Assembly: GCA_021781795.1 (NCBI GenBank)
Contig: JAJXWA010000003.1
Location: 1-64,000 of the forward strand
DNA from: Acidobacteriota bacterium
GTDB taxonomy: Bacteria > Acidobacteriota > Terriglobia > Terriglobales > Acidobacteriaceae
DNA: 64,000 nt
Direction of reading: 5' to 3'
This document shows, piece after piece, positions 16,984 through 32,775 of this stretch. Position numbers and translations under genes: made by a program. The notes beneath the pieces were generated by a model. It was not told the origin of the DNA. It made no database searches and was given only the letters and a program-made list of their open reading frames with translations. The first letter of the stretch is position 1. Each line of letters begins with the position of its first letter.

Positions 16984-18999
16984 CTAACGCGTCCTCGAGT
17001 CGCCCGTGGGCAGAAATGCGACGCCGGCGACCTCTTCCCCTGAAGACAACACGTCGCGCAGCCTCTGTGCATTCGGTCCGCTGCGCGCTTCGGCTGCTTG
17101 CAGAACGCGCAGAGCTTCGGCTGGAGACGTTGCGGCCGTCAGCCTGAAGATCCAGGCGATATTTGTGGATGTGAGCGCGGTATCGTCGCTGAGGGCAACA
17201 ACGGGAACAAAAGCCTTCAGCGAGAGCTGCTCCGCCAGATGAGCAGAATTGCGGTCCAGCGCGATGATCGCCAGTGCGCGGTGGTCCCAGAGAGCATGCA
17301 CGAGCTGCGTGGACGCTGCACCCCAGTTCTGATCGCTGGCTACAGGCACCAGCTCCCACGCCCTTTGGTTATGTTCTCCCGGAAGCAACTGCCGCATTGC
17401 GCCCGAGGCGACCACCTCCTGCGCGTGCGGTCCGAAGACCACAACCCGCAAGGCCCCGGCAAGCAGGCTGGGTCGCGCCGGCCCCTGATACTTCACGCCA
17501 TCCTCACCGACACGCGCATAGGGAGTGGGCGTTGACCCATGCACGCGCAAAGGTATCGAAGCATCATTCGAAGCGCCCGCAGGCTTCTTGCTGGAAGAGT
17601 CCACAGCCACAGATTGCGCGGGCTGCTCCTTTTCCATCGTCGCTCGCCTGTAGCTTACCGTTCCGTTGTGAACCGTGCCGATGTACATGGGCGCGACGTT
17701 CTTCTGGTTTGGATCGAACACCATGTGGCCGGTGACGCCGTCGTATTGCTCCAGATCCGCAAGCGCGTCATGAATACGCGGGCGATTCAGGCCTGCCTCA
17801 CAAATCGCATGCAGCAAAATATTCATTGCGTCGTACGCCAACGATGCAAACTGCTCCGGCGGTTCATGAAAGCGCGCCTCAAATCGCTGGTTGAATTCAA
17901 TCCACTTTGGATCCCTGCGCGTGGGGTCGTAAGGAAAGACGGCTTCGAAGTTTTCCGCCGCAGGACCTGCTGCGGCAAGCATGTCAGGCCCGAGTGTTCG
18001 GTACGAGCCAAATACGCGCTGCTTCATTCCAAGAGTCTGCATCTGTTTAAGGATGTTTGCGGTTGGAATTTCATCGCCCCAGATCACAATGGCATCCGCG
18101 CGCGACTCCTGTATGATCCTCAATTCCCGCGTAAAGTCTGTGTCGCCGGGCATGTACTTCTGTTCGATCACAATGGGATGGCCCAGGCGCCGGGACGCAT
18201 CGCGCATCTTGAGCACGCCGAATCGTCCGTATCGGCTGTTAACGCGCAGCAGAGCCACGCGCTTGAGTCCCAGCTGCGTGAAGATGCGCCGCGCCAGCGT
18301 GAGACACTGCACACGATCATCCTGCAGATCCGTAAAGAACCAGGGAATGTAGGTCTCAGGAATGGTAGGGTCCGTCGATGCGGAGTTCACGATCGGAATC
18401 TCCGCTTTCAATGCCACGCGCAACGCGATATGCGTCGACTCGGAGCTGATGGAGCCGAAGATTGCCCAGTCCTGATCGTCATACACCATCTTGACGGTTT
18501 CGTCGGAGGGCGATCCCCAGATGCCTGGATCGGTGGGTCGGTCTGGTCCACTGACCGTCATCGCCTGCCAGTTGTCGTAGTCGTTGTGCAGCATGAGCCT
18601 GAAGGGCTTGCCGCCATAGCCACCGCGCGCATTGGCTTCCTCCACAGCCAGTTGCGCGCCGTTCAGCATTCGCTGCCCGAAGAGAAGCTCCGGGCTGTGC
18701 TCGATGGGGCCAAAAAAGCCAATGCGCACCTCCTTCAGGTTCTTCGGTTCGGGAATGTCGCGTCCGGCTCCTGTGTAGATATTGGGATGTGTGTAGTTGA
18801 GGTCGTACGGCTTCACAAACTTTTCGTACGGGCTCATATCCGCAGGCTCACCGGCATACGGCTCGACAACCCGGTCCTTAGGCGGGCCCGGCGGATGCGC
18901 TCCGCAAGCGCAGCCCTGCTTGTCAGCTGACTGTCCGTTCGCGATGGTTCCCGCACAGGCGATAAACACGCACGCCGCAATCCACCATCCCTTGCGCAT
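16984..18999 (-). CDS. Leu/Ile/Val-type periplasmic substrate-binding protein, extended
   Basis: Exported binding protein of about 671 residues. A signal peptide covers residues 1-22 (WWIAACVFIACAGTIANG). The mature N-terminus has a Cys/Pro-rich stretch, then a type-1 periplasmic-binding domain: VRIGFFGPIEHSPELLFGQ, GAQLAVEEANARGGYGG, WAIFGSISSESTHIAL and IPIVNSASTDPTIPE. After a Ser/Pro linker (about 455-500) a second, incomplete domain of the same kind follows (VVALSDDTALTSTNIAWIFRL). Usual LivK-type proteins have about 370-400 residues, so this is a tandem or fused form. The ATG at 18999 is preferred over a frame start at 19029. No ABC permease or ATPase lies nearby. It is the last gene of the nine-gene run, five bases after the Rid gene. 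Confidence 0.8.
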   Translation of the reverse strand: MRKGWWIAACVFIACAGTIANGQSADKQGCACGAHPPGPPKDRVVEPYAGEPADMSPYEKFVKPYDLNYTHPNIYTGAGRDIPEPKNLKEVRIGFFGPIEHSPELLFGQRMLNGAQLAVEEANARGGYGGKPFRLMLHNDYDNWQAMTVSGPDRPTDPGIWGSPSDETVKMVYDDQDWAIFGSISSESTHIALRVALKAEIPIVNSASTDPTIPETYIPWFFTDLQDDRVQCLTLARRIFTQLGLKRVALLRVNSRYGRFGVLKMRDASRRLGHPIVIEQKYMPGDTDFTRELRIIQESRADAIVIWGDEIPTANILKQMQTLGMKQRVFGSYRTLGPDMLAAAGPAAENFEAVFPYDPTRRDPKWIEFNQRFEARFHEPPEQFASLAYDAMNILLHAICEAGLNRPRIHDALADLEQYDGVTGHMVFDPNQKNVAPMYIGTVHNGTVSYRRATMEKEQPAQSVAVDSSSKKPAGASNDASIPLRVHGSTPTPYARVGEDGVKYQGPARPSLLAGALRVVVFGPHAQEVVASGAMRQLLPGEHNQRAWELVPVASDQNWGAASTQLVHALWDHRALAIIALDRNSAHLAEQLSLKAFVPVVALSDDTALTSTNIAWIFRLTAATSPAEALRVLQAAEARSGPNAQRLRDVLSSGEEVAGVAFLPTGDSRTR

Positions 19000-19004
19000 C
19001 GAAG

Positions 19005-19514
19005 CTACTCCTTGTTGCTGTGGCAGCACTTCTTTTCGGTACGGAACATCGCGATGGCCTCGATCTCAATCAGCAGTTCGGGGCGGCAGAGGTGAGCCTG
19101 GATGCCGGTCGAAGCAGGCAGAGGGTCCAGCCCCTGCTCCTTGAAGAAAGCCGTGCGCTCTTCGTTGAATGCGTCATAGTCGCGGTCAATGTCGCGCAGG
19201 TAACAGCTGGTGCGGACGATGTCATGCCAGGTGCATCCCTCGCTGGCAAGGAGCCCCGTGATGTTGGACAGCGTGCGCTTCATCTGCGCGCGAAAATCGC
19301 CGATGTGGACGCTGACGCCGTTTTCGTCGATGGACGCGGTACCCGAAATCAGCAGGATTGTAACGCCGTTCAGATCAATTCTCATGCCGCGCGAAAACGA
19401 ACTCGGCTTCCCGTAGCAATACGCTTCATTGAGGACGGAGTGGTTGGTCATGGCACGCTTCGCAATGGCGGTGTGCCCGATATGTTCCATTACATCTGCA
19501 ATTCCCTGCATCAT
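19005..19514 (-). CDS. Rid/YjgF-family protein lacking the catalytic arginine
   Basis: Cytoplasmic protein of 169 residues with the Rid (YjgF/YER057c/UK114) trimeric fold: GVTILLISGTASIDENG, FRAQMKRTLSNITGLLASEG, DIVRTSCYLRDI and LLIEIEAIAMFR. RidA deaminates reactive enamine or imine intermediates with an Arg (R105 in E. coli, in PARSCVEV). Here the ungapped equivalent is PASTGIQA, with Ser at that site, so classical enamine deaminase activity is unlikely. An N-terminal extension of some 30 residues precedes the fold and the C-terminus ends KKCCHSNKE. AGGAG lies six bases before the ATG. It lies 28 bases after the propeller gene in the same run. Confidence 0.85.
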   Translation of the reverse strand: MMQGIADVMEHIGHTAIAKRAMTNHSVLNEAYCYGKPSSFSRGMRIDLNGVTILLISGTASIDENGVSVHIGDFRAQMKRTLSNITGLLASEGCTWHDIVRTSCYLRDIDRDYDAFNEERTAFFKEQGLDPLPASTGIQAHLCRPELLIEIEAIAMFRTEKKCCHSNKE

Positions 19515-19542
19515 GTTGGCTCCTTAAAAATTCTGCAACGAG

Positions 19543-20631
19543 TTAGTTTTGAAAGATTCCGTGGCTCAGACCCCTGGCAGTCGCTACCCAGATGTCATTG
19601 CCCTGAAAGTCAATTCCGAGGATGTAGTGGTGCGCAGGCGCCGTCGTCACCGGGACTGCGGTGACATGGCCCTGCGCATCGCGCACCGTCATCTCCGGCC
19701 TTCCTGTTGTGAGCGAAGGCCGATAGACTGCCCAGTTGGTTCCGTCGTAGTAAGCAAGACCCCTGTCCGTACAGAACCACGCGTGATTGGCGTCCACGCC
19801 CTTCACGAAATTGGTAAAGTTGGACGGGAGGCCGCTGTCCTTGGTCAGGAAGTTATGCCAGTAACGGCCGTCGTAGCGGCTGTCACCAAAGTAGGTCGAG
19901 ACCCACAGAACTTTATCCACGAAGCTAACCGAGCTGGTGATCTCATGAATGAGGCCCTGATCCTTGAAAAGCACCATCTCAGTTTCGCCGTCAGGGTCCT
20001 CATATTTGTCCCACGTCTTCGTGCTCTGGTCGTATTCGAGGACACCGCTGCCCCATACGGCGTAGTAGACCTTGGTGGGCGAGGCACTCACCCCGTAGAC
20101 CCATATCTCGACCATCGGCGTGTTGCGCTCGTTGTAGAGAGCCCACTGGCCAGTGCGCAGATTCAGCCGGCTGCCGCCCGCAGCCGTCGCAACCCAGACA
20201 TCTTCGCCCTGCACGGCGACACCGTACACCACATCGTTGCTGAGTCCAGAGTTGAGTTGCGTAAAGGAATCAATGTGGCCACCGGAGATACGGCTCAGCC
20301 CGCCCATCGTTCCAGCCCACACATCGCCGGTGTTCCTGTCGAGCGCGAGGGAGAGGACCGCGCGATGCGCGAGGCCGTCTTTCGTCGTGTAGGTCTTCCA
20401 CGTGTGGTTTTCGTATACAGCCAGACCGTTGTCCGTGCCCGCCCAGATGCGATCCCCATCGACGAGGACGCTGTAGACGTGATCGTCAGGCAGACCGTTC
20501 GCGGTGGTGAAGTTCTCAAATCGGTAGTGCGGCATTTGCGGCACGTGGTTGACCGCAGGAACCGTCGAAGGCGCAGCCCATGTAAATGCTGCGGCCGCCG
20601 TCAGTGTCATCGTCGCCAGAGAGATCTTCAT
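19543..20631 (-). CDS. Secreted Reg_prop-type beta-propeller protein
   Basis: Exported protein of 362 residues. A signal peptide (about 1-20, LTAAAAFTWAAPS) precedes at least six propeller blades of the two-component-regulator propeller type. Recurring elements are TTANGLPDDHVYSVLVDGD-RIWAGTDNGLAVYENHTW, RAVLSLALDRNTGDVWAGTMGGLSRIS and DVWVATAAGGSRLN, closing with DIWVATARGLSHGI. Such propellers usually form the sensor part of hybrid kinases; here no kinase is attached. Its ATG overlaps the stop of the YVTN-cytochrome gene by four bases, so the two are translationally coupled. A scaffold or ligand-sensing role in the periplasm is inferred. Confidence 0.8.
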   Translation of the reverse strand: MKISLATMTLTAAAAFTWAAPSTVPAVNHVPQMPHYRFENFTTANGLPDDHVYSVLVDGDRIWAGTDNGLAVYENHTWKTYTTKDGLAHRAVLSLALDRNTGDVWAGTMGGLSRISGGHIDSFTQLNSGLSNDVVYGVAVQGEDVWVATAAGGSRLNLRTGQWALYNERNTPMVEIWVYGVSASPTKVYYAVWGSGVLEYDQSTKTWDKYEDPDGETEMVLFKDQGLIHEITSSVSFVDKVLWVSTYFGDSRYDGRYWHNFLTKDSGLPSNFTNFVKGVDANHAWFCTDRGLAYYDGTNWAVYRPSLTTGRPEMTVRDAQGHVTAVPVTTAPAHHYILGIDFQGNDIWVATARGLSHGIFQN

Positions 20632-22535
20632 CGTGTCCTCAGATACTCAATCAGATCGTTCAGCTCATCCTTGGTCAGGTCATTCGTGCGGCCGTGCTTG
20701 TCCTCGGGATTAAACACAGTCCAAATCTCTTCGAGCGTCGCTGCGGAGCCGTCGTGCAGGTACGGCGCGGTCAATGCGATGTTGGAGAGTTGCGGAGTAT
20801 CGAAGCGCCCGGAGTTATCCGTTAGCTTCCTGGTGCCTACATCAAAGGATTTCTGATCGGTCCCTTTCGGGCCGCTGTGACAGTACGAGCATCGATTCTG
20901 CAACGGAATCGGTGCGCCAAACTTATCGACCGCACGATCGAAGATGGCCTTACCGCGCTCCTGGGCAGGGGATAATTCATACCCCGGAAGTCGCCAGCGA
21001 TTGGGACGCAGAGGAAGGCTTAGCATGTAGGTCACGAGATCGGCGAGGGTCAGGTCGTCATAGTTCGCCGAGCGCCAGAAGTACTTCTCTGTGCGCGGCC
21101 CGCATTCCGTGGGAAGGTTGGGATTACCCCCATTCCACTTGTATGGCTCGGTGCCTTTGAGATCCTCGATCAGACGGTTGTCCACAATGTCACGCCCAAA
21201 GCCGTCCGGCTCAAGATCCCACTCCAACCCATCAAAGGTGGAATCGATGTGGCAATTCGCGCAACCTATCTGCCCCTGAAAGGAGTACCGCGCAGTGTAG
21301 AAAGTCTGCTCGCCGTAACGCAGAACAGAGAGCTTCGACGGGCTGGCCAACCGGATGGTCGAGCCCACGCGATTCGTCTGCGTGTCGATGACGCTGATGG
21401 TGTCATCGAGCCGGTTGGCAACCAGCAGCTTGCGGCCGTTGTCTGTGATGAGCATGCCGCGCGGGTCACGCCCTACCGGGATGCGGGTGACCACATAGTT
21501 GGAACTCGCGGAGAGATCCTGCACAAAAGGCGCGTGGTGCGTCTGCACATAGTTCAGCAGGCGGCGGACATCAATGACCGTAACGATCTCAGATCCACCG
21601 CTGGTGACATAGAGGTGAGACTTGTCCGGCGTAATGGCGACATCGAAGGGTCTCGCTGCGTAACGTTCCAGCTCATCTAGCGGAACTTCAACGGTGCGAT
21701 TGCCAACATCTGCGCCAAAAAGCATCAGCGTGTCTTCAAATGCGCCGCCGTGTTCAAGATGCGCCAGGGGAACGAGGTTCTTGGGATGCAACTCGGCGGC
21801 CACGCCGAGACGCCCGTCCGCAGAGACTGCCGCGTGAAATACGCCGGCAATGCCATGAAGCTGGATGCGGTCAACTACGACTGCTCTCTGCGCATCGATG
21901 ACGGTGATCTCCGATTCGGGCTCTGTCCTGTGCGGCGATGGATTGGGATATACATGGGTGACGTAGACTTTGCCGCCGTCGGGCGCCATGGCCATGTAGC
22001 TGGCGCCGCGGCCCGCGGCAAGTCGCTTGATCTCAGCGCCAGTCTGCGCACTGAGAACGGCAACGTCATTGGAGATGCGGTTGGCGACGAAGAGATAGCG
22101 ACCGGTGCGATCCTCGACTACGCTGGATGGCTCTGCACCAACCTTCCATGTCGCGGCAACTTCCAGGGAGCCGGTGTCGATGACGGAGATCGTATCGTCC
22201 CAGGAATTGGTGACAAAGAGGCGCGATCCATCTGGCGAGAGGGCGATTCCGCGCGGCACGTGACCAACCGAGATCGCCTTGACCGCGGTGCCGGTCGCTG
22301 AATCGAGTACACGCACCTCATCGCTCTCATTGCAGAGCACGTAGAACTGCTTTGCATTTTTGGAGGAAAGGATCTCGAGAGGCGATGGGTAAGTCAGCCG
22401 CTCTCCTACCCGACCCGTAACGACAGCTCCCACTGGCTGCACCGTCCAGATCCAGGTGCAGAGAATCGTGGCGCACACCAACACGGTGAGGCCGGATCCG
22501 GCAACGAAAACGCGGAGTATTCCCTGACGCCTCAT
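20628..22535 (-). CDS. YVTN beta-propeller fused to di-haem cytochrome c domain
   Basis: Exported 635-residue redox protein. An N-terminal membrane segment (about 8-30) acts as signal or anchor. Residues about 45-400 form YVTN-type propeller repeats (GHVPRGIALSPDGSRLFVTN, DTISVIDTGSLEV, DTISVIDTQTNRV). The C-terminal part resembles the MauG/cytochrome c peroxidase family, with two haem c sites: CANCH at 425-429 and CSYCH at 549-553, followed by SGRFDTPQLSNIALTAPYLHDGS, a highly characteristic CcpA/MauG stretch. It probably transfers electrons in the periplasm to or from an oxidised substrate or a partner. It overlaps both neighbours by four bases (ATGA), so it sits within a tight operon. Confidence 0.85.
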   Translation of the reverse strand: MRRQGILRVFVAGSGLTVLVCATILCTWIWTVQPVGAVVTGRVGERLTYPSPLEILSSKNAKQFYVLCNESDEVRVLDSATGTAVKAISVGHVPRGIALSPDGSRLFVTNSWDDTISVIDTGSLEVAATWKVGAEPSSVVEDRTGRYLFVANRISNDVAVLSAQTGAEIKRLAAGRGASYMAMAPDGGKVYVTHVYPNPSPHRTEPESEITVIDAQRAVVVDRIQLHGIAGVFHAAVSADGRLGVAAELHPKNLVPLAHLEHGGAFEDTLMLFGADVGNRTVEVPLDELERYAARPFDVAITPDKSHLYVTSGGSEIVTVIDVRRLLNYVQTHHAPFVQDLSASSNYVVTRIPVGRDPRGMLITDNGRKLLVANRLDDTISVIDTQTNRVGSTIRLASPSKLSVLRYGEQTFYTARYSFQGQIGCANCHIDSTFDGLEWDLEPDGFGRDIVDNRLIEDLKGTEPYKWNGGNPNLPTECGPRTEKYFWRSANYDDLTLADLVTYMLSLPLRPNRWRLPGYELSPAQERGKAIFDRAVDKFGAPIPLQNRCSYCHSGPKGTDQKSFDVGTRKLTDNSGRFDTPQLSNIALTAPYLHDGSAATLEEIWTVFNPEDKHGRTNDLTKDELNDLIEYLRTR

Positions 22536-24226
22536 TGCGGCTCCACGACGGTAAGAACGCGGTTGATGGGTTGATCGGCGAGCGTCTGCTCGCGGCCGCT
22601 CGGCCAGTGGATAACAATCCTCTCGGCGCTCGTGGCGGGGCCAAGTCCGAAATGCAGGCGATCGTCGTTTTGCGAGAGGTAGCCGGAGCCGGCGACTCGC
22701 TCCGCTGTGTAGCGCTTTCCACCGGCAATCACCTCGACTTTGGCACCGATGCCGTCGCGATTGCTCTTTGCGCCGCGCAGCTTAATGGCCAGCCAATGTC
22801 CCGTACCGGTGGAGATGTTGTGCAGCAGAGTCGCCTTGTCGCCAAGATTCACAAGAAAGGCGTCGACTTTTCCGTCGTTGTCGTAGTCCGCAAAGCAGGC
22901 GCCGCGAGCCACCGTTCGTTTGCTCAGCACAGGACCCGCTAATCGCGATACATCTTCGAACTTCCCATCGCCGAGCCCGCGAAAGAGCGTGTGCTCCTGC
23001 GGAATGAGATGAATCAGGCCGCCATGAAAGATGAGAATGTCGAGCAGCCCATCGTTATCGAAGTCGTAGACACCCGATCCCCAACTCACATATTGGGCAT
23101 TGGCCTGCGAGACTCCATTCGTCGCGCCAATATCGTCGAAACCCTGTTTGCCCGCGTTACGAAGGAGCCGATTGTAGTGGCCGTCGGTAACCCACAGATC
23201 GAGCGAGCCACGCCCTTCCAGGTCCGCAAAGACCGGGCCCATCGACGACGTGGACTCGCCGTTCTGCCCGAAGGCGGTCCCAGTGTCATTGCCCACTTCC
23301 TCGAAGGTTCCGTCATGCTTATTGCGGAAGAGGAAGTTTTCGGTGCGATCGTTGGCAACATAAATATCGTCCCAGCCGTCACCATCAAAGTCGGCCGCCG
23401 TCACACCCATCGTCCGGCCCACATAAGCGCCGATGCCGGACTTATCGGTCACGTCTGTGAACGTGCCGTCGCAATTGTTGTGATAGAGGCGATTCGTTTC
23501 TCCGGCGTAGTCCAGCGGACCGGGATAGTTGTCAGCCGCATAGTAGGCCCGGTACTTGGGGTCGAACTTGACATAGCGACCGATAAAGAGGTCCACGCAA
23601 CCATCGCGGTCGTAATCCAGAAATGTCGAGCTGATCGACCACCCGTCCACCTTGATGCCCGCTTTTGCGGTCACGTCAGTGAAATGGCCGTTGCCGTCGT
23701 TGTGATAGAGAATGACGCGTCCGTACCCCGTCACCAGCAGGTCGACATACCCATCGTTGTCATAGTCCGCTGCCGTAACGGCCATGCTGTAAAGGTCGGG
23801 CGCGAGACCGGCCTTTTCCGTCACGTCGGTGAATCTTCCGTTGCCGTCATTGCGATAGAGATGATTGTGCGGCATCGGGTCGGGTTTCACCTGCAGAGGA
23901 TACGGGTGCATTGAATCGTCGAGCGGGCGTCCGTTGACCACGTAGAGATCGGGAAGACCATCATTGTTGTAGTCGAACCAGACACAACCCGCGCCGGTTC
24001 CTTCCAGCAGAGATCCCAACTTGGCTGAGCCAAAGCTGTGCACGAAATCTAGATTGGCTTTGTCGCTGGCATCTTCAAAGCGAATGACCGGCTGAGCGGC
24101 GCTCTGCGATGAAGGGCCGGCCTCCGGCGCTGTAGCAGGTACGCTTGGTGCAGCCTGCGGCTGCTGCGCTCCGATTGCTGCACAGGCGGCGAGCGTGATG
24201 GCGAGGATCAGGGCTGGTCTTCTCAA
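22532..24226 (-). CDS. CRTAC1-like FG-GAP/ASPIC-UnbV secreted protein
   Basis: Exported protein of about 564 residues. A signal peptide (LRRPALILAITLAACAAIGA) and a Pro/Ala linker precede FG-GAP/VCBS repeats with calcium-binding-like Asp loops: VWFDYNNDGLPDLYVVNG, DYDNDGYVDLLVTG, DYDRDGCVDLFIG, DFDGDGWDDIYVAN. They build an integrin-like propeller. The end carries an ASPIC/UnbV domain (GIGAKVEVIAGGKRYTAE, then IVIHWPSGREQTL). The frame runs up to 24610 inside the upstream gene, but a TTG at 24226 has GGAGG eight bases before it and starts the signal peptide one base after the upstream stop. Its stop overlaps the next gene by four bases. ASPIC/UnbV proteins have no settled function. Confidence 0.85.
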   Translation of the reverse strand: MRRPALILAITLAACAAIGAQQPQAAPSVPATAPEAGPSSQSAAQPVIRFEDASDKANLDFVHSFGSAKLGSLLEGTGAGCVWFDYNNDGLPDLYVVNGRPLDDSMHPYPLQVKPDPMPHNHLYRNDGNGRFTDVTEKAGLAPDLYSMAVTAADYDNDGYVDLLVTGYGRVILYHNDGNGHFTDVTAKAGIKVDGWSISSTFLDYDRDGCVDLFIGRYVKFDPKYRAYYAADNYPGPLDYAGETNRLYHNNCDGTFTDVTDKSGIGAYVGRTMGVTAADFDGDGWDDIYVANDRTENFLFRNKHDGTFEEVGNDTGTAFGQNGESTSSMGPVFADLEGRGSLDLWVTDGHYNRLLRNAGKQGFDDIGATNGVSQANAQYVSWGSGVYDFDNDGLLDILIFHGGLIHLIPQEHTLFRGLGDGKFEDVSRLAGPVLSKRTVARGACFADYDNDGKVDAFLVNLGDKATLLHNISTGTGHWLAIKLRGAKSNRDGIGAKVEVIAGGKRYTAERVAGSGYLSQNDDRLHFGLGPATSAERIVIHWPSGREQTLADQPINRVLTVVEPQ

Positions 24227-24227
24227 C

Positions 24228-25640
24228 TTAGCGGCCTCCGGATGCGACGCGGTGAGCGGAAGAGGCTGGCTGAACCGCGGTGAGAGCGACGGGAGTAGTG
24301 GTGCGCAGCAGAACTGCGGGAACGCGATTATCCGAAGATCGCTCTGGGCCTGTGTGACAGCCAACACAAATGCGCTGCTCTCCGCCGCGAGACCAGAACC
24401 ACCCATGCTCCTGCCGCAGTACACTCCCCTTCGCATCCAACAACGAAATGCGCAGCGGCCTGTCCCCTGGCACCTGGATGAAAAAGGAACCATCCTGCTC
24501 AACCGGCGCAGTGCCCATAATGAACGCTTTGCCGTCGGCATCCTGCGCCTCCAGCCGGACCCGAGCCGGAGTTCCCTTGAGTACGCCATCCCGCGAGAGA
24601 CGTGCGTCAAGCGCTAAAAGATTTGCGTAGTCCCATGGATGCAGCCCAGATGGAAACCGCGTGGGCATGGTACGCGGCGCCACCAGAACAGGCTCGACCA
24701 GATCCTGTGTGCTTTCCGCAAGCTCTGTCCTCATCGTGGATGTGCCCGGCTTCCAAAGCTTGAGAACGTAGTGCATGCCCGCAGGCTGTCGGACGCTCAC
24801 CAGCCACTCGCCTGAAGGCGCCTCAGCAATTGAGCCCGCATACTGGCCTGGCGGCGCTGCAATGCGCACTTCATGCGCAAGAGGTGAAGTGAATCGCGCA
24901 AGGCCGTCTCCATGCGTGAAGACCACGTCGCCGGAAGACGACTGCTCTCCGGCCCAACGCGCAACGCCATGGTCGCACCGGTACGACTCGACGCCAGACC
25001 CGTCTGGATAAACGAGGAACATCTCGGCCGCTTGTCCATTGCCCAGCGGGTAGTTGGATTCAAACAGAACGCGGCCATCCTGCAGTACATCGTCTGGGAA
25101 TGAGCTCCCGCGCGTGTAGGCGAGCTTCATCTCACCGGGGCCTGTTGTCGGATTCAGCGGTGTCGATAAGAGCGGATGGCCATCGTCATTCGAGTCCAGC
25201 CGAAAACCGCCGGGCGTGCGCAGGCCGAAGACTACTCGCCCGGCGGGCAGGTACAGTGGGCGCTCTGCGTCACTCGCTGTAGTCAGTACGTGGCGCAGGG
25301 AGTGATCTTTCAGCGAGAGCTCCCAAATCTGCCAAGGATCGCCCGGCTTTTGCTTGCCCGAAAAGATCACCCGACTTCCGTCGAAGTAGACATTGGCATC
25401 TGCGCTCGCAGCAAATTCAGGTATGAGCGGTTCAGCTTTGCCATCACGCACCAGGAGAAGATGCGCCCCTTTGGGGAAGCGCTCCTCCCCGCGCAGCTCT
25501 GCACGCGGCACATACACGGGAGCAGCGGTCACGATGATGTCCGCAGCGATGCGGTCCACATGGGAGTCGGGCTGCGGAGCCGCAAACAGCGGCACGGCAG
25601 TAAAAGAGATTAACGTGACGATGCCCCTGAAACCCCTCAT
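24228..25640 (-). CDS. Secreted mono-haem cytochrome c with TolB/HZS-alpha-like propeller
   Basis: Exported protein of 470 residues. The signal peptide spans about 1-20 ([15 protein letters not shown]). The middle has propeller-like blades ([55 protein letters not shown]), as in TolB-like and hydrazine-synthase-alpha middle-domain proteins. The end has one haem c site, CVGCH at 425-429, within [21 protein letters not shown]; this GEQR-x-C-x-G-CH context is known from HzsA-like proteins of many non-anammox bacteria. A role in hydrazine metabolism is not implied, as the other subunits are absent. The ATG overlaps the stop of the DAHP-synthase-like gene by four bases. Confidence 0.75.
24235..24239 (-). 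promoter_or_regulatory. Ribosome-binding site for the TTG start at 24226
   Basis: GGAGG on the minus strand, within the last codons of the mono-haem gene and eight bases before a TTG that opens a good signal peptide. It decides the start of the CRTAC1-like gene. Confidence 0.65.
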
Positions 25641-26446
25641 CCAACGGCCTCCAGCGAGCGCGTAGCCGGGGCGTCTTTCACCTCGGCCTCTCGCAAGGCA
25701 ATGTAGGGATCGAGCGAGTCCATCATCCCCTCAAAGTCCGCGAAGTCCAGCGATTGATCGCCGTCGCTCCATGCCTTCTCAGGATGTGGGTGCACCTCTA
25801 TCAGCAAGCCATCCGCGCCAGCGGCGACAGCGATACGCGCCAGGGCCGGGACCAGCTCACGGCAGCCCGCGGCATGGCTCGGGTCGGCAATGACCGGGAG
25901 GTGCGAAACCTGCTTGAGCAGAGGAATCGCAGTCACATCGAATGTGTTGCGCGTTGCAGTCTCAAACGTGCGAATGCCTCTTTCGCACAGGATGACGTTG
26001 GGATTTCCGTTGTCGAGAATCAACTGGGCCGAGCGGAGCAGATCGGCAATGGTCGCCATCATGCCGCGCTTCAGAAGAACCGGTCGTCCAGAGCGAGCCG
26101 CGGCCTCCAGCAGGGAGTAGTTCTCCATGTTGCGGGTGCCAATCTGCAGGATGTCCGCGTATTCGGCGACGAGTGAAACATCGCACTCCGACATGACCTC
26201 TGTGACGATGGCCAGTCCGCTCTCTTTGCGCGCGCGGGCAAGCATCTTGAGGCCTTCGACGCCATGCCCCTGAAACGAGTACGGAGAGCTGCGTGGCTTG
26301 AAGGCGCCTCCGCGAAGGATGCGCGCCCCGCAGCGGCGTACATGATGGGCAGTCGCCATGAGCTGAAATTCGGTCTCGACCGAACATGGTCCAGCCATGG
26401 TGACGAATTCCCCGCCCCCGATCTCAAGATCCAGAATCCGCACCAT
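25637..26446 (-). CDS. 3-deoxy-7-phosphoheptulonate synthase-like enzyme (type I-beta core)
   Basis: Enzyme of about 269 residues of the DAHP/KDO8P synthase superfamily, which condenses phosphoenolpyruvate with an aldose phosphate. DAHP synthase is the first step of the shikimate pathway. Conserved segments are [80 protein letters not shown] and [19 protein letters not shown]. The metal ligands (Cys in GPCS, His in DPSH, Glu in IEVH) are in place. The ferredoxin-like N-terminal regulatory domain of many type I-beta enzymes is missing, as in unregulated archaeal forms. The start is uncertain: ATG at 26446 matches the core; a TTG at 26614 would add 56 atypical residues. Its stop overlaps the next gene's ATG. 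Confidence 0.85.
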
Positions 26447-26671
26447 CGTCTGTGCGCAATCCGAACTTTTCAACACACCGGGGCTCTCGGCAAACTGTTC
26501 TTGCCAACTACCGCGCAACGTCTGCGCTCCAATCTGGGGAAGTGTCAGACTATCGTGAAGCTTAGGTCCTCGCCTCAACCCAAAGTTGGAGGTCCGGGAA
26601 CGAGTGAGATGCAATCAAAGTGAGGCATCAGACCAGCGCGACAGAGCACGCTCACCGCCCACATCAGGCGC
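26447..26671 (-). other. Gap between the amidase and DAHP-synthase-like genes
   Basis: The largest gap (225 bases) inside the nine-gene run. It could hold a second promoter for the downstream seven genes. No strong -35/-10 pair or terminator hairpin was recognised. The DAHP-synthase-like frame remains open through most of it. Confidence 0.35.
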
Positions 26672-28084
26672 TCAGAAATGATTTGCGAGAGGCGGCACGC
26701 GGTAGCCAAACGCCGCATCCACGACACCCGCAATGGCCAGTGCGGCTTCGTCCTCAAATGGCCGGGCGACGACCTGCACGCCGATGGGGAGGCCATCCCT
26801 CAAACGGCCCACAGGGACGACCGCCGCCGGAGCCGCCAGCGTATTGAACCACTGCGTATGCCGCACTGCGTCGAGGTAGGCGACTGATCGGCCGTCTATG
26901 GACCACTGGCGTTCACCGTGACGGAACGCCGGAATGCTGGCGACGGGACAAAGCAGCACGGGCCAGGCTGCGAGTTCCTCCAGAGCCTTCGAGCGCAGAA
27001 GGTCCAATTGCGCCCATGCGTCAAGAAGCTGTTCGGGAGTGAACGGTCTTTCAGAAGCTGCGATCCCAAGAAATTCTCGAAAGATGGGGCTCAGCTTTTC
27101 CTCTTGCCCGCGGATTGCGGGAGCATAGAACATGGCTCCGCACTGCACGAAGAGCTTCCACCAAAGGCGCCGCAATGGTTCCAGCATGCGCGGACGGAAT
27201 GGTTCTACGCGGAATCCAGACTCACGCAGTGCAGAGGCCGCCGCATGCACCGCTGCGCGTGTCTCCGGTGTGACAGGCACAAGCCCGTCGTCTTCAAAGA
27301 AGCCGATGGTCTGGCTGCGTAGCTCCTCGAGCGACCGCTCGCGGTATGCGATGGGCGGGCTGGAAGGGTCGAGAGGATCGTGTCCGCCCAGTGTGCGAAA
27401 GAGCAGATTGACATCTTCCATCGTGCGCGCCATGGGGCCAATCGCTCCGAGAACAGAGAACGGTCCCACGCAAGGCGGCAAGTGTCCTCTGCCCGGAAAG
27501 CGCCCCGGAGTTGGCTTGAACGAGCAGATCCCTGTAAAGTGCGCTGGAACGCGAACCGATCCACCGCTGTCCGATCCGAGTCCGGCCGCTGACATGCCCG
27601 CAGCAATCGCAGCCGCCTCGCCTCCGCTTGAGCCGCCCGGTGTGCAATCGAGATTCCACGGGTTCGATGTGCGGCCGTGCAGCAGGTTGTCCGTCTCGTA
27701 CGCCATCAGAAACTCGGGGCAGTTGGTCGTCCCAAGAATGAGTGCGCCGGCAGCGCGCAGGCGAGCCACCGCAATGGCGTCCACATGGGGCACGTCGTCC
27801 TTGTGGAGCAGACTGCCAATCTCGCAGCGAAACCCTGCTGCCGCAATGGACGACTTGACCGTGACCGGCAAGCCGTAGAGCGGACCGCGCAGCGCGCGCG
27901 ATTCGTCCATCTGCAGGGCCCGCACGCGCACCCGGTTCGCATCGAAATCGACCAGCGCGTTCAGCTTAGGATTCAGGCGCTCAATCTGGCGAATGTGCGC
28001 CTCGGCGAGTTCAACCACGGAGACAGCCCGCGACCGCAGCATGTGCACCTGCTGCGTCGCAGGCTGCAGAACAAGTTCGTTCAT
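26672..28084 (-). CDS. Amidase-signature family amidase
   Basis: Cytoplasmic amidohydrolase of 470 residues that hydrolyses a carboxamide to acid and ammonia. The Ser-cisSer-Lys triad is visible: K77 in GLPVTVKSSI, S153 in CTPGGSSGGEAA and the nucleophile S176 in GSDSGGSVRVPA. The central region (ICSFKPTPGRFPGRG, GPMARTMEDVNLLF) and the end (NTLAAPAAVVPVGRLRDGLPIGVQVVA) match the family. It resembles the stand-alone amidase branch rather than GatA, and no gatB or gatC is nearby. Its ATG overlaps the stop of the TPR/FG-GAP gene by four bases, so it is coupled to a secreted-protein gene despite having no signal peptide. Confidence 0.9.
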   Translation of the reverse strand: MNELVLQPATQQVHMLRSRAVSVVELAEAHIRQIERLNPKLNALVDFDANRVRVRALQMDESRALRGPLYGLPVTVKSSIAAAGFRCEIGSLLHKDDVPHVDAIAVARLRAAGALILGTTNCPEFLMAYETDNLLHGRTSNPWNLDCTPGGSSGGEAAAIAAGMSAAGLGSDSGGSVRVPAHFTGICSFKPTPGRFPGRGHLPPCVGPFSVLGAIGPMARTMEDVNLLFRTLGGHDPLDPSSPPIAYRERSLEELRSQTIGFFEDDGLVPVTPETRAAVHAAASALRESGFRVEPFRPRMLEPLRRLWWKLFVQCGAMFYAPAIRGQEEKLSPIFREFLGIAASERPFTPEQLLDAWAQLDLLRSKALEELAAWPVLLCPVASIPAFRHGERQWSIDGRSVAYLDAVRHTQWFNTLAAPAAVVPVGRLRDGLPIGVQVVARPFEDEAALAIAGVVDAAFGYRVPPLANHF

Positions 28085-31000
28085 CGAAGTGCCGGCAGGC
28101 TGGGCGAAGGTAAGCGATCGTCCTGCGGCGTGGACGGCAGCTGTTTGTAGTCGAAGCGGTAGGATCGTACCGGCTCGCCCGTGTCGAAGCGATCGTTCCA
28201 GTTCAATTGATACGCCACGGAGTCCGTACCGTCCGGAAACCTCTCACTGGTTGGATACGGGTAGGACGACATGCCGTGGAACGGAAGCTGGGCAACGGTG
28301 AACGGCGATGCGTCCCACCAGTCCATATCCTTCACGTATCCATTTGCATAGAAGAAGTAGTCGCGCTTCCAGTGCGCAGGCAGCGTGGGCAGGCGACTGA
28401 CATCGAACTCCGCTGCAATCTCTTCACCGCTGCCGAAGATTGCGTAGCGGTCGTCTTTGCCGCTCACCAACTGCGTCACATCGCCGTAGTGGGTATAACT
28501 GCCGCGCTGATGCTGGAAGGGCCCGGTGAGACTCACGCGATCGTAGTCATAGTCGAGATCACCGGGGCTCTTGCCTTCGACCTGCAACGGATATCCGCGG
28601 AACTGTTCCGTCGCAAGGGTCAGCGGCACCTCAGTGGTGCGTGTTTCAGCGTCCGGATGATTATCAATCAGCACCTGGTCCCAATAAATCTCGAGATTGC
28701 TGATCAGCCGGATCCGATGCACGCCGGCCGGCAACTTGTGCGACAAATCGACGACAATCGTACGTTCTAGTCCTGCCGGGAATCCCGCTTCGCCGGGAAT
28801 GCGCTGCCAGGTTCCATCCGGAAGTTGTGCCTCCACATATGGCGAAATCGGCTGAATGCCGGCCTGCCACGCGGAGTAGAGCGAACTTGCGCTGAAGTAA
28901 TTGACATAGCCGGCCATGAGCAAACGCAAGGATGCATCGGTACGAATCAAGCCAAGATCCAGCGTAAGCGTGTGCGTGTTCGCGAAGCCGTCGTAGGGAG
29001 TCGGCGTAAAGCCTCCCGCAAAGACGTGATCCCGATGCGTGAGCGCCGCGAGCACATCGTGGCCTTCGCCATCCCATGCGCCGACAGGCAACATTGCACC
29101 GGCGGAAGCAACCAGGCGGCCGGAAGCAAACGGCGGGTCATCGAGAAATTTCTCATCTGGGTTGACTTCCACATCATCAGGATGGTCGATGGCGACGAGC
29201 CGAAGCTGGTCGATGTAGTTGACCTCTTCCATGGGCTCGATGAAGCGCAGGCTCAACCTGCCGTCGACGGGCGCGGCAGAAGCGCCGTCCACCTTAATCC
29301 ACTCGCTAGGGTTGGGCGTGTTGCGCCGCGTGGGAGTGAACCAATGGCCCACAACACCCGCGCCAATCACGTCAGTGACGAGTTTGTACTTGTGCCCATT
29401 CCACACAAAGAGCACCGGGCAGGAGCTGCCGCGCCGGTCTGCTTCCTTCATCGCAATTACCTGCTGATGCGGCAGGTCGATCTCGTCCTGAAGAATGCCG
29501 GTCGGCCAAAGAATGCGCAGCAGGTCGATATGGTCCGCGCTTCCGAGGCCGACGAGAATCTGCGGCGGCGCCTGCGTCTGAAAGCCCGACGCTCCGGCCA
29601 GCTCCCACTTCTGCCACTGGCCATTTGCAAAGATCTCCACTTTTGCGCCCAGCGCCGTCTTGTTATCCGCGTAGCCGCTCAGGTCGAGGCGCGCGAAATG
29701 ATTCCTGTTTGCGCCCACGTTGCGCAGCAACACGGGCGGAGCATCGGCCTTTGTCACAATCAGGTCCGGCGCACCATCCCCATCCACATCAGCGGCAATC
29801 AGACCTCGCGCATGCTGCAGATGCATCTTGCTGAGGCCCAGGACTGCGCTCACATCCTCAAAGCTTCCATCGCCACGATTTCGAAAGACCTTCAACTGTG
29901 TACCGGTGCGTGTTTGCACAAGCGCGGCCAGGTCCACCCAGCCGTCATTATCGATATCGACCGGCGTCACGCCCCATCCACGCACCGCTCCATGCAGCGG
30001 CAGGACAACGCGCTCAAACCCGCGGCCGATTTCGTGAGGCCCGGAAATGTTGCGCCAGAGAGTCACGCCCGGAGCGCCCTGATGCGTGACGGCGATGTCC
30101 ATCCAGCCGTCTTTGTCGAAGTCGAGAACGGCGATGCCCTCACTTGCGGGCAGCTTCTCGCCGTAGATGGGCTGGGTAGGGTATTTGCCTTCGCGCGGAT
30201 TGACATAGAGGAGCGGCGCTGCGCCGGAGCCCGTAACGCCAAGATCGACGGCTCGATCGTTGTTGAAGTCCGTAAGAATAGCAGCCCGTGTTGGAGCGCT
30301 GCCGCCAAGCCCGGTCGGGGCCGTCCACTCCGTGAAGGTCCGGTTGCCGTTGTTGCGCCAGAGCACATTGGCTTCGCTGCCCGCGGCAAGCGGAGCGCCG
30401 GTCACAAACAAATCCAGATCGCCATCGTGATCAAAATCAACAAACGTAATTCCACTCGGGTGATTGCGCGCGCCGAGACCTGCCTCTGCAGTCACATCCT
30501 GAAATTTACCCTTGCCCAGATTCCGAAACAGCCGCACGCCATCGTCCATGGCGACGGCAAGATCGTTCAGGTTGTCCGCATCGTAGTCACCGACCGTGCA
30601 GGCAACGCCGCGGCCAGCAGCTTTCAGGCCCATCCCTGCGGCATCCAACTGTTCAAAGCTGCCATCGGCGCGGCGATGGAGCACTGCGATGGCCTGAGCA
30701 CCCGACTGCATCAGAACCAGATCCATCTGGCCCGATCCGGTCGCGTCCATCATGCAGGCGGCGCCGGTGAGGCCACTTCCGCTGAATCTCCCCAACATCG
30801 GCTGCGCTTCGAGATGAACGGGAATCATACTCGTTTCGATCTTCTGCCGCTCTTCAATCGGCGTCACCGTGGAATAGTGGCCCTGCTCGCCATACGCAAG
30901 TCCGATGGCCGCAGAGATCTTCGTGCTCGTCATGTGCTGGAAGAGCTTGAAGTGCTCCTTGGCTTCCTGTGTGTGGCCGGTGCGCTGCAGCGCGCGAGCC

Positions 31001-31524
31001 ATCGCGAACTCGGACGACGCATGAAGAGGCTGAATGGCAAGCGCCTGCTGCAAGGCTGCAATCGCCTTGTCGAACTGGTGCATCTCCTGGTAGCAGACGC
31101 CTTCAAAGTAGTAAGAATCGGCGTCTCTCGGGTCTGCCTTCACCGCGTGCTGGAAGCTGGCCAATGCTGCGTCCAGATCGTTGTCTGCATGTTGCGCAAG
31201 ACCCAGGTTGTACCACGCCTGAGGGTTGTCGGGCTCCAGCGAGAGTGCCGCCTTGAGCGACTTCTCTGCATCGGGCAATCTCTGCAGAGTCATCAACGCG
31301 ATGCCGTCATTGATGGCCGCCTGCGCCATCGCCGGATCTTTGGCAAATGCGCCCGCAAAGGCCTGTTCGGCCTTCTCGGTAAACTGCTGCCCCATCAGTG
31401 CCACACCGCGATTGTTGAGTTGAATCGCTTCGTTCTTGAAGCGCGCCTGCGCGCCCCCGTGAGGCGAGGCCATTGTGCACCAGATAGCGGCAACTGTAGC
31501 TGCAAGTCTTGCTGTCTTTCCCAA
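28081..31524 (-). CDS. TPR + FG-GAP + ASPIC/UnbV giant secreted protein
   Basis: Exported 1147-residue protein, first gene of the nine-gene run. A signal peptide (about 1-25) is followed by about five tetratricopeptide repeats (about 30-185; for example PQAWYNLGLAQHADNDLDAALASF). FG-GAP/VCBS repeats follow (about 230-590: DYDADNLNDLAVAMDDG, DFDHDGDLDLFVTG, DVDGDGAPDLIVTKAD). An ASPIC/UnbV domain spans about 595-670 (GAKVEIFANGQWQKW, LLRILWPTGILQ). The C-terminal third (from RRGSSCPVLFVWNGHKYKL) is beta-rich, with a motif rich in Tyr and Asp (YDYDRVSLTGPFQHQRGSYT), and has no recognised family. The TTG start at 31524 has GGAGAG six bases upstream. It probably forms a protein-interaction platform in the periplasm or at the surface. 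Confidence 0.85.
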   Translation of the reverse strand: MGKTARLAATVAAIWCTMASPHGGAQARFKNEAIQLNNRGVALMGQQFTEKAEQAFAGAFAKDPAMAQAAINDGIALMTLQRLPDAEKSLKAALSLEPDNPQAWYNLGLAQHADNDLDAALASFQHAVKADPRDADSYYFEGVCYQEMHQFDKAIAALQQALAIQPLHASSEFAMARALQRTGHTQEAKEHFKLFQHMTSTKISAAIGLAYGEQGHYSTVTPIEERQKIETSMIPVHLEAQPMLGRFSGSGLTGAACMMDATGSGQMDLVLMQSGAQAIAVLHRRADGSFEQLDAAGMGLKAAGRGVACTVGDYDADNLNDLAVAMDDGVRLFRNLGKGKFQDVTAEAGLGARNHPSGITFVDFDHDGDLDLFVTGAPLAAGSEANVLWRNNGNRTFTEWTAPTGLGGSAPTRAAILTDFNNDRAVDLGVTGSGAAPLLYVNPREGKYPTQPIYGEKLPASEGIAVLDFDKDGWMDIAVTHQGAPGVTLWRNISGPHEIGRGFERVVLPLHGAVRGWGVTPVDIDNDGWVDLAALVQTRTGTQLKVFRNRGDGSFEDVSAVLGLSKMHLQHARGLIAADVDGDGAPDLIVTKADAPPVLLRNVGANRNHFARLDLSGYADNKTALGAKVEIFANGQWQKWELAGASGFQTQAPPQILVGLGSADHIDLLRILWPTGILQDEIDLPHQQVIAMKEADRRGSSCPVLFVWNGHKYKLVTDVIGAGVVGHWFTPTRRNTPNPSEWIKVDGASAAPVDGRLSLRFIEPMEEVNYIDQLRLVAIDHPDDVEVNPDEKFLDDPPFASGRLVASAGAMLPVGAWDGEGHDVLAALTHRDHVFAGGFTPTPYDGFANTHTLTLDLGLIRTDASLRLLMAGYVNYFSASSLYSAWQAGIQPISPYVEAQLPDGTWQRIPGEAGFPAGLERTIVVDLSHKLPAGVHRIRLISNLEIYWDQVLIDNHPDAETRTTEVPLTLATEQFRGYPLQVEGKSPGDLDYDYDRVSLTGPFQHQRGSYTHYGDVTQLVSGKDDRYAIFGSGEEIAAEFDVSRLPTLPAHWKRDYFFYANGYVKDMDWWDASPFTVAQLPFHGMSSYPYPTSERFPDGTDSVAYQLNWNDRFDTGEPVRSYRFDYKQLPSTPQDDRLPSPSLPALR

Positions 31525-31620
31525 GAAACTCTCTCCGGCTCAGATGTGCGAAATTGGGGTTTAAGAACCGCGGAACTAGCCAGTGTATGCGAGCAGGCAT
31601 CTCTTGCGCACGAGTGTTCC

Positions 31621-32775
31621 ATGCCGATTTCCTCTCATCAAAAGCGACAAGGCCTGCGAATTTATACTCAATGCGTGCCCCCTTCGCTTGCAGAGATCGA
31701 CTGGCAGAGGTTTCTCCAGCGCCCGCTTCTGGAGCCGGCCCCGGTGCGGATGAGCGACAATCTCCGCGCGCGCTCGATTCTCATCACCGGAGCCGGCGGA
31801 TCGATCGGCGCCGCACTGGCGCTGCGGTGTATGGCGATGGGTGTACGTTCCTTATCGCTGCTCGAAGCCTCCGAAAGCAGGCTTTTCCAATTGCAGCAGC
31901 AATGCAGCAGCCAATATGGTTCGCTACAGCCAACCTTTCTCCTAGGCAATGTGACCGACCCCGGCATGCTCGAAGAAGTGTTCGCCCGATCCGCACCTGA
32001 TCTTGTCTTTCACGCCGCTGCGTTCAAACATGTCCCTCTGCTGGAGGAGCAGACAATCGCGGCGATCGCCAACAATGTGCTGGCCACGGAACTGGTCTCC
32101 AAAACGGCTTCGGCATATGCGGCGCGCGTGGTGCTGGTCTCCACTGACAAGGCAGTAATGCCTGTCTCCATTCTTGGCGCTACCAAGCGAGCAGCCGAAC
32201 AGATCGTGTTGAGCCAACATGGCGTCGTAGTCAGGCTTGGAAATGTTCTCGCATCGAGCGACAGCGTCGCCGAGATCTTCGCTCATCAGATTGCAAGTGG
32301 CGGACCCATCACCATCACGGACCCTGCCGCGCGCCGATTCTTCCTCACGATCGATGAGGCGGTTCACATTGTCCTGGCAGCTTCGTCGGAGGAGAACTGC
32401 TTACTCATCCCGGCGCTCGAACAACAGCACTTTATCGCGGATCTGGCTCGTTTTCTCGCATCAGAGCTTACGCCGAATCGACCCGTTCCAATCGTCTTTA
32501 CCCAATTGCGCGCAGGCGACCGGGAGGCGGAGCGTCTGTACGCCGACGATGAGGTGCTGGGTCCAGAGGTCCTGCCGAATCTGCACTGCGTCACTACGCC
32601 CAAAATTCAGTCTCACACAATTGAGGAATTGCTGACGAGGATGCGCACGGCGGTGGCTTCGCGCGACCGCTCTGCTGCGCTTGAGTGTCTGCTGACTCTT
32701 GTGCCGGAGTTTGCGCCGCATGCGAAGGCGCAATCCATCGCGCCCAACCATGATTTGCGAGTCACGCGATCATGA
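31621..32775 (+). CDS. CapD/PglF-like nucleotide-sugar 4,6-dehydratase (extended SDR)
   Basis: Soluble NAD-dependent dehydratase/epimerase of about 384 residues, likely acting on UDP-N-acetylhexosamine. The Rossmann motif is SILITGAGGSIGAALA (about 52-67); further motifs are DLVFHAAAFKHVPLLEEQ, NNVLATELV, VLVSTDKAVMPVSILGATKRAAEQ and ARRFFLTIDEAV. As in other CapD/FlaA1 proteins the usual SDR Tyr is replaced (here ILGATKR, the family often has VMGATKR). The N-terminal membrane helices of PglF are missing. The ATG at 31621 is used; a GTG at 31675 is possible. Its stop overlaps the NeuC-like gene by four bases, so the trio is one operon. A much longer open frame extends upstream to 28825, but this is antisense to the TPR gene. 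Confidence 0.8.
   Translation: MPISSHQKRQGLRIYTQCVPPSLAEIDWQRFLQRPLLEPAPVRMSDNLRARSILITGAGGSIGAALALRCMAMGVRSLSLLEASESRLFQLQQQCSSQYGSLQPTFLLGNVTDPGMLEEVFARSAPDLVFHAAAFKHVPLLEEQTIAAIANNVLATELVSKTASAYAARVVLVSTDKAVMPVSILGATKRAAEQIVLSQHGVVVRLGNVLASSDSVAEIFAHQIASGGPITITDPAARRFFLTIDEAVHIVLAASSEENCLLIPALEQQHFIADLARFLASELTPNRPVPIVFTQLRAGDREAERLYADDEVLGPEVLPNLHCVTTPKIQSHTIEELLTRMRTAVASRDRSAALECLLTLVPEFAPHAKAQSIAPNHDLRVTRS

Follow-up and report, generated by a model that had tools for sequence, protein, structure and literature searches.

Relatives of hydrazine synthase in a conserved nine-gene operon of Acidobacteriota

Which function is encoded by an acidobacterial operon in which predicted exported propeller and haem proteins are combined with an amidase, a DAHP synthase and a Rid-family protein, and which of its genes belong together? 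The locus raising this question is located on a stretch of 64,000 nucleotides (contig JAJXWA010000003.1 of assembly GCA_021781795.1, Acidobacteriaceae; positions 1 to 64,000), hereafter referred to as the window, and comprises nine open reading frames (ORFs), P0001 to P0009 (genes 1 to 9), arranged end to end on the minus strand from 31524 to 16984. That its core encodes relatives of hydrazine synthase from anaerobic ammonium oxidation (anammox) is considered nearly certain.

Hydrazine-synthase-like proteins of the operon

Based on sequence comparison, P0004 is firmly assigned as a relative of the alpha subunit of anammox hydrazine synthase, and P0006 equally firmly as a relative of its fused beta and gamma subunits. 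Hydrazine synthase gamma matched P0006 more closely (2e-22) than the next solved di-haem enzyme, 6e1c (4e-10). A trio of genes for HzsA-like, CRTAC1 and fused HzsBC-like proteins was previously described in four clades (I–IV) by Hagglund et al. 2025 (PMC12758564). In the preliminary description of this DNA, made from the sequence alone, P0004 and P0006 had been named cytochromes, a mono-haem and a YVTN di-haem one; the haem counts were correct, and the kinship to hydrazine synthase, apparent from the HZS_alpha domain of P0004, had been missed. Its family calls for the nine products agree with the domain scan.

Features of hydrazine synthase described in the text of PMC12607021 include a tyrosine ligand of the alpha-I haem, zinc, and a gamma-I haem bound by three cysteines. 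Residues of P0004 were counted in 47 distinct sequences (48 rows less duplicates), nearly all originating from the window's family. No tyrosine corresponding to the haem ligand alpha-Tyr591 was found up to 11 residues past the motif histidine in any of the 47 sequences, and the aligned position is occupied by glutamate (41) or alanine (6). Each protein carries a single CXXCH motif (48/48 rows), so that the second alpha haem (alpha-II) is missing. Cys222 and His224 were each present in 46/47 sequences; the region of the alpha-Cys303 zinc site did not align with hydrazine synthase, and according to the text of PMC12758564 this site is not universal in anammox bacteria either. Furthermore, scores remained far below the cut-offs of the curated hydrazine-synthase models NF052339 (56.7 vs 800 bits) and NF052342 (159.9 vs 1250 bits). 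A protein-database search with the HzsA-like alignment, in which 7999 candidates were scored, returned 3309 relatives; among the 120 listed, all were close and nearly all unnamed or annotated as 'hypothetical protein', giving no functional clue.

For P0006, 58 distinct sequences were compared (71 rows less 13 duplicate pairs), again almost exclusively from the window's family. Gamma-subunit positions were mapped by counting along 5c2v_C from its CASCH motif (Cys102, Cys105 and His106 are named in PMC12758564), and a counting check landed on His 144, Cys 165 and Asp 168 as expected. As read from these alignments, the residue replacing gamma-His144 would be a tryptophan of the MauG/peroxidase kind, and PMC12758564 likewise puts the MauG/peroxidase tryptophan at this place. 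The third haem-linking cysteine, a hallmark of hydrazine synthase, is retained in P0006, where it is predicted to form the corresponding bond; this cysteine is absent from L031, L069 and L070 (3/58). The gamma-Asp168 position is occupied by threonine in 58/58 sequences and adjoins a glutamate in 56/58. Most residues linked to hydrazine formation are thus lost from the core, and the losses reported for clades I–III in the text of PMC12758564 agree with these counts. Moreover, CCP_MauG matched P0006 above its cut-off (34.6 vs 25.6), and the TTQ_mauG and MbnH-family models matched below theirs.

P0006 itself has two haem motifs. A third CXXCH was found in 11 of the 58 distinct relatives (L048, L059, L065, L070 and L079 among them), located between the propeller and the di-haem part in five aligned relatives; one extra haem motif in the beta-gamma protein is described for clade III in the text of PMC12758564. 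In L009, an HzsBC-like paralog (74–75%) was observed without a match to other operon genes within 1.5 kb on either side.

Conservation of the gene order and the orphan binding protein

A search with P0004 yielded 49 loci from 46 assemblies (by accession), of which 48 loci are labelled acidobacterial and 20 carry a bog, fen, palsa or peat label. Genes were called at 40% identity, 120 bits and 40% coverage. The full set of nine genes, collinear and on a single strand, was found in 26/49 loci, confirming that the arrangement is kept beyond chance; the isolate Occallatibacter savannae AB23 (L073), a cultured strain, possesses the complete set. For this species, PMC12935467 names the culture-collection strain DSM 25170. 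Conservation of gene order among relatives, on which the preliminary description had made its proposal depend, was therefore observed. In twelve loci, the set runs into the end of the contig (L033, L034, L041, L047, L055, L056, L060, L061, L064, L071, L074, L077); here, L047 and L074 showed no gene 2 in the available upstream sequence, and the gene-3 match is short in L060 and L061. The remaining eleven deviate otherwise (L044, L052, L059, L063, L065, L068, L070, L075, L076, L079, L080), with little sequence upstream of gene 4 in L079. The order 4-5-6-7-9 was encountered in five loci. L047 represents a contig labelled Betaproteobacteria with genes 3 and 4 at 55–63% identity and is possibly misbinned.

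Among 60 related genomes, HZS_alpha was detected in 37 (in 30/36 within the genus), and a P0006 match adjoins it in 35/37; genome and contig sets overlap (13 identical P0006 pairs), so that their counts are not independent. The ratio of nonsynonymous to synonymous substitution rates (dN/dS, NG86) was low for all nine genes (0.02–0.23; six chosen pairs, 50/54 gene-pair cells computable), the value of 0.23 deriving from a pair with dS 0.05 and many pairs having dS >1, near saturation.

Across the phylum, HZS_alpha was found in 47/396 sampled Acidobacteriota genomes at 60 places. Twenty of these were inspected, namely 19 of the 21 strongest (G000 and G018 left out) and G084, the other weaker matches lying mostly in longer frames. 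Sixteen of the inspected places are outside the window's family, and genes 4 and 6 occur together in 12 of them; in L096, L097 and L104 the sequence stops with gene 5 or shortly behind it, and the gene-4 matches of L114 are weak. A Reg_prop gene follows gene 6 in 10/11 out-of-family loci with continuing contig (exception: L099). A binding-protein gene follows in 9/10, and two such genes in 7/9, the other two loci ending within the first. The order 4-5-6-7-8-(3)-9-9b was read in four additional out-of-family loci (L083, L084, L093, L095), three of them with DAHP synthase. Rid (at least 59%) and DAHP synthase were each present in 7/20 out-of-family loci (16 + 4).

These results show a core of HzsA-like, CRTAC1, HzsBC-like and Reg_prop proteins together with two binding-protein domains. 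Rid and DAHP synthase form an accessory pair occurring in some lineages, and the genes for the amidase and the TPR/FG-GAP/UnbV protein are less constant. Treating the nine genes as equals, as done in the preliminary description, is not supported by this pattern. New compared with the published trio is a phylum-wide core to which Reg_prop and twin binding proteins are added, and in some lineages also DAHP synthase and Rid.

The first half of P0009 is nearest to branched-chain amino-acid binders (nearest solved structure: 4gnr, 3.6e-27) and is followed by a second, partial binding-protein half. Since out-of-family loci carry two separate binding-protein genes, the second also matching the C-terminal part of P0009, the latter looks like a fusion of twin binding proteins with a shortened second half. 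The LivH/LivM-type permease family PF02653 gave no match in the window's genome G000 (87.7% complete) and was present in 12/14 control genomes. It was absent from 32/36 same-genus genomes and unmatched in 26/30 same-genus genomes with an HZS_alpha domain. In the window's genus, P0009 would mostly serve no classical importer, which is regarded as the strongest lead to its role. Behind the signal region of P0009 (~18880-18912), a conserved C-x-C-G-x-H/N/D-P-P-x-P stretch (CxCG..PPGP) was noticed, of which the strict CxC[GA]xH form occurs in 32/37 sequences; it is a possible metal or lipid site.

Layout, accessory enzymes and flanking genes

The uninterrupted run of nine genes described earlier was reproduced, and so were most of its junctions (Table 1). 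Four-base overlaps were read from the sequence at 28081, 25637, 22532 and 20628, the P0004 stop is separated by one base from the TTG start of P0005, and P0008 and P0009 are preceded by 28 and 5 bases, respectively. The 225-base gap upstream of the DAHP-synthase gene applies only if the ATG at 26446 (residue 57 of the open frame) is the start; the frame opens at TTG 26614, leaving 57 bases. Most same-genus matches to this gene start somewhere from residue 4 to residue 41, so that the actual gap is probably below 225 bases. The six exports predicted previously are supported by a hydrophobic N-terminal stretch in six products (score 1.60–2.66; P0002, P0003 and P0008: 0.54–1.28) in a hydropathy scan, which is no signal-peptide predictor. 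The nine genes may constitute one transcript; consensus promoters and terminators were not more frequent in the scan than in shuffled sequence.

Table 1. Features of the operon and related loci (positions refer to the window unless a contig is named; aa, amino acids).
Feature	Position	Strand	Evidence
Gene 1, P0001, 1147 aa, TPR + FG-GAP + UnbV/ASPIC, predicted exported, accessory	28081..31524	-	family scan; in the 26 nine-gene loci
Gene 2, P0002, 470 aa, amidase-signature hydrolase, accessory	26672..28084	-	PF01425, E 4.7e-96
Gene 3, P0003, DAHP synthase, B. subtilis type; TTG 26614, ATG 26446	25637..26614	-	TIGR01361, NF006421 above cut-off
Gene 4, P0004, 470 aa, HzsA-like: TolB-like propeller + HZS_alpha + one haem c motif, predicted exported	24228..25640	-	HZS_alpha above Pfam cut-off
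CXXCH haem motif of P0004, residues 425-429, aligning with haem alpha-I of hydrazine synthase	24354..24368	-	47/47 distinct sequences
Gene 5, P0005, CRTAC1-type FG-GAP/UnbV propeller, predicted exported, TTG start 24226	22532..24226	-	PF13517, PF07593
Gene 6, P0006, 635 aa, HzsBC-like fusion: YVTN propeller (beta-like) + di-haem (gamma-like), predicted exported	20628..22535	-	family scan
CXXCH of gamma-I-like haem, P0006 residues 425-429	21249..21263	-	58/58 distinct sequences
Trp467 at gamma-His144 place	21135..21137	-	58/58; alignments
Cys478 at gamma-Cys165 place (third covalent haem bond in hydrazine synthase)	21102..21104	-	55/58; alignments
CXXCH of gamma-II-like haem, P0006 residues 549-553	20877..20891	-	58/58 distinct sequences
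Gene 7, P0007, 362 aa, Reg_prop propeller, predicted exported, core	19543..20631	-	PF07494, E 1.4e-8
Gene 8, P0008, 169 aa, Rid-family protein	19005..19514	-	PF01042
Gene 9, P0009, LivK-type binding protein, predicted exported, ATG 18999	16984..18999	-	PF13458 (Peripla_BP_6), E 8.7e-46
Octahaem c-type protein, 412 aa, weak hydrazine-dehydrogenase similarity	L081:3787-5025 (window's genome, another contig)		

P0003 scored 365 bits with TIGR01361 (cut-off 267.75) and contains the conserved active-site-type stretches GPC, KPR, LKRG, CERG and DPSH; it looks like an intact DAHP synthase. It is also an extra one, as two paralogs of ~50% identity and one 37% relative are encoded elsewhere in the genome. 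A role as nonulosonate synthase beside the neighboring sugar genes was rejected, the NeuB match being weak and that to DAHP synthase far stronger. In P0008, PAST is found where RidA has PARS (alignment to 1j7h), so that the catalytic arginine of RidA (Arg105) is missing; Rid models remained below cut-off. The stretches SGTASI and CRPELL are reminiscent of FkbO/XanB2; the FkbO/Hyg5 chorismatase model was rejected (34.3 vs 325 bits, covering model positions 186-310 only), and the listed solved relatives are of Rid type, so that no chorismatase is claimed. Rid-like relatives of P0008 in L087 and L090 lie near a small ORF (255 and 245 aa, respectively) with alike N-terminal sequence. Relatives of gene 1 adjoin the core in L101 (44%) as well as in L076 and L080 (28–29%).

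Divergently upstream, a three-gene sugar set (31603-35086, plus strand) encodes a Polysacc_synt_2 dehydratase, a NeuC-type UDP-N-acetylglucosamine 2-epimerase (above cut-off) and a PseC/LegC-like aminotransferase. ORF clusters of the 2-epimerase and the aminotransferase (single-linkage clustering) were upstream and divergent in 23/49 and 26/49 loci, respectively. A 625-aa ORF convergent with the operon (15021-16898, plus strand) matched no Pfam or NCBIfam model and may encode a porin of the coiled-coil-plus-barrel kind; an ORF family just downstream on the corresponding strand in 13/49 loci was taken to comprise its relatives.

Possible function and relation to known systems

Tentatively, and at somewhat less than even confidence, the core is interpreted as a predicted extracytoplasmic complex that is no hydrazine synthase but likely an oxidase of the peroxidase type, acting on an amino-nitrogen compound which it captures. 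P0009, lacking an importer in most of these genomes, may pass its ligand on to the haem complex or signal its presence to the cell. In P0006, peroxide (or oxygen) would oxidize the gamma-I-like haem, with its predicted Trp467 relay and third cysteine link and with Glu483 nearby, and this haem would then attack the bound compound. Moving along the beta-type propeller, a reactive product could reach the single haem of the alpha-like P0004 and undergo a second step there. In the cytoplasm, Rid, DAHP synthase and, in the window's family, the amidase might process the product or provide an aromatic partner. The earlier proposal of a periplasmic oxidation system holds insofar as a conserved operon with predicted periplasmic haem oxidation fits the data, with two hydrazine-synthase relatives overlooked; the nitrogenous substrate it suggested is plausible.

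Several points weigh against the oxidase interpretation. Substrate, oxidant, chemistry and complex formation are predictions. The P0006 model has a predicted local distance difference test (pLDDT) score <50 at 417-491 and 554-599, within the di-haem half, so that the active site rests on the sequence alignment only; the fold search with this model covers the propeller only, and Glu483 as distal acid is our own reading of an ambiguous alignment gap. PF02653 is present in 4/30 same-genus genomes with the HzsA-like gene and, outside the genus, in 4/7 HZS_alpha genomes (G038, G040, G042, G058; in none of these four on the operon's contig); in G054 it was detected only below cut-off, and in G037 and G052 not at all. 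LivHM permeases could moreover have escaped detection through divergence, and several of the genomes lack part of their sequence. Regarding gene content, L044, L065, L068 and L075 lack genes 1-3 and 8, L070 consists of genes 4 and 6 only, and L099 of 5, 4 and 6 only. Of the four loci with a Bryobacterales, Bryobacteraceae or Solibacter label, L076 alone has Rid, and none has DAHP synthase. Both binding proteins were seen in seven out-of-family loci, two of which have a clear Rid gene and four DAHP synthase. Rid-like genes of the P0008 type were also found outside the operon (G032, G057, G058 and others), in varying contexts and without a common partner apart from L087 and L090. The amidase, which in the survey was restricted to loci of the window's family and did not recur beside the core outside it, is no part of the phylum-wide set.

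The points on gene content also bear on a possible, though doubtful, alternative: the core alone would form a functional unit, beside which DAHP synthase, Rid and amidase would lie by chance or for general metabolic reasons. The four loci missing genes 1-3 and 8, the Rid-like genes elsewhere and the occurrence of Rid and DAHP synthase in 7/20 out-of-family loci each are in line with it. It is opposed by the position of these two genes, which, where present outside the family, adjoin the core at varied places, suggesting repeated or retained linkage, and by the operon DAHP synthase being an extra paralog.

The conserved tryptophan and the CCP_MauG match, together with the weaker MauG and MbnH-family matches and partner proteins encoded alongside in conserved order, could also point to P0006 as a MauG/MbnH-type maturase building a cofactor by oxidizing tryptophans of P0004, P0005, P0001 or P0007. 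MauG, bacterial di-haem cytochrome c peroxidase and MbnH share with P0006 the C-terminal di-haem domain and the tryptophan between the haems; P0006 differs from them in its fused propeller, its third haem cysteine and its closer sequence match to hydrazine synthase gamma. A maturase, which would also leave the beta-type propeller, the HzsA-like protein and the binding proteins unexplained, is rated unlikely.

Sensors often contain Reg_prop and LivK-type domains, and the permease is lacking in most genomes of the genus. A sensing complex, in which a ligand is detected by the binding protein together with the Reg_prop and FG-GAP propellers, with the haem proteins as redox reporters and the enzymes as targets, is nevertheless quite improbable: no histidine kinase or regulator was recognized among the nine genes, and two haem proteins with retained catalytic-type residues exceed the needs of a sensor. 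The YVTN propeller and a binding protein are also common to periplasmic systems associated with pyrroloquinoline quinone (PQQ)-dependent catabolism (TIGR03866); P0006 reached 159 bits against a cut-off of 287.

Slightly less probable still is retained N-oxide chemistry outside anammox. Here, the gamma-I-like haem would reduce nitric oxide (NO) or another N-oxide to the level of hydroxylamine, and the product would react with an amine at the alpha-like haem, yielding an N-N or N-O compound. In its favor, all three subunits have relatives in the operon, the third haem cysteine is kept, and a binding protein resembling amino-acid binders could present an amine. Against it, the tyrosine near alpha-591 (0/47), the second alpha haem, gamma-His144 (Trp) and gamma-Asp168 (Thr, 58/58) are gone, the text of PMC12758564 concludes likewise for its clades, and the sole tested hydrazine-dehydrogenase-like match in the genome, the octahaem protein on L081, was rejected as a partner (65 vs 900 bits; its family PF13447 occurs in 14/60 relatives, not tracking the operon). 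Hydrazine synthesis as in anammox was rejected on the residues alpha-Tyr591, alpha-II haem, gamma-His144 and gamma-Asp168 and on the curated scores.

Compared with anammox hydrazine synthase (5c2v), the operon shares the alpha and beta folds, the full-length beta propeller, both gamma haem motifs, the alpha-I motif and the gamma-Cys165 equivalent. It lacks the four features just named, has beta and gamma fused (as in Scalindua), and adds CRTAC1, Reg_prop and binding proteins. The HZS-like genes of Phycisphaerae UBA1845 (PMC10732223) likewise include HzsA-like directly upstream of fused HzsBC-like; they differ in blastp bit scores of 89–163 to Kuenenia, the authors considering anammox possible, and such an operon is not described in the text of that paper, which proposes HZS-like enzymes as a wider family with other substrates.

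The clusters described in the text of PMC12758564 agree most closely: HzsA-like lies upstream of fused HzsBC-like with CRTAC1 between them, tryptophan replaces gamma-His144 and Tyr591 is lost, and in clades II–III the alpha-II haem and the last ~100 residues are lost as well. By gene order and the lack of an extra P0006 haem motif, the window matches clade II as described there. In contrast, that text reports two binding-protein genes for clade III only and names no Reg_prop, Rid, DAHP synthase or amidase, and the extra cysteine is reported for clade I, whereas here it is found in 55/58 of a clade-II-like set. Its main text contains neither 'Acidobacteri' nor 'Verrucomicrobi', yet the clade I species Paludibaculum fermentans is an acidobacterium. 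The earlier statement that no known system has this set therefore stands for the whole set in the open-licence literature searched, and falls for the published middle trio; the gene set around the trio, the phylum-wide core and the missing permease were not found described in that literature.

As a long shot, the operon might encode a relative of the enzyme ancestral to anammox that kept the cross-linked gamma haem and the two-site layout and, fed by an orphan amino-acid-binding protein, works outside the cytoplasm of peat and soil Acidobacteriota, where it would give organic amines an N-O or N-N bond.

Hydrazine synthase represents a defining enzyme of anammox, with a debated origin, and the operon provides its non-anammox relatives, for which no reported function was found in the literature consulted on the family, with a repeated genetic context. 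Furthermore, it provides a residue signature of the core, the peroxidase-type tryptophan together with the hydrazine-synthase-type third cysteine. The finding calls for caution in surveys taking hzs-like matches as anammox markers in peat and soil metagenomes, and the availability of a cultured strain with the operon makes the function of the family directly testable.

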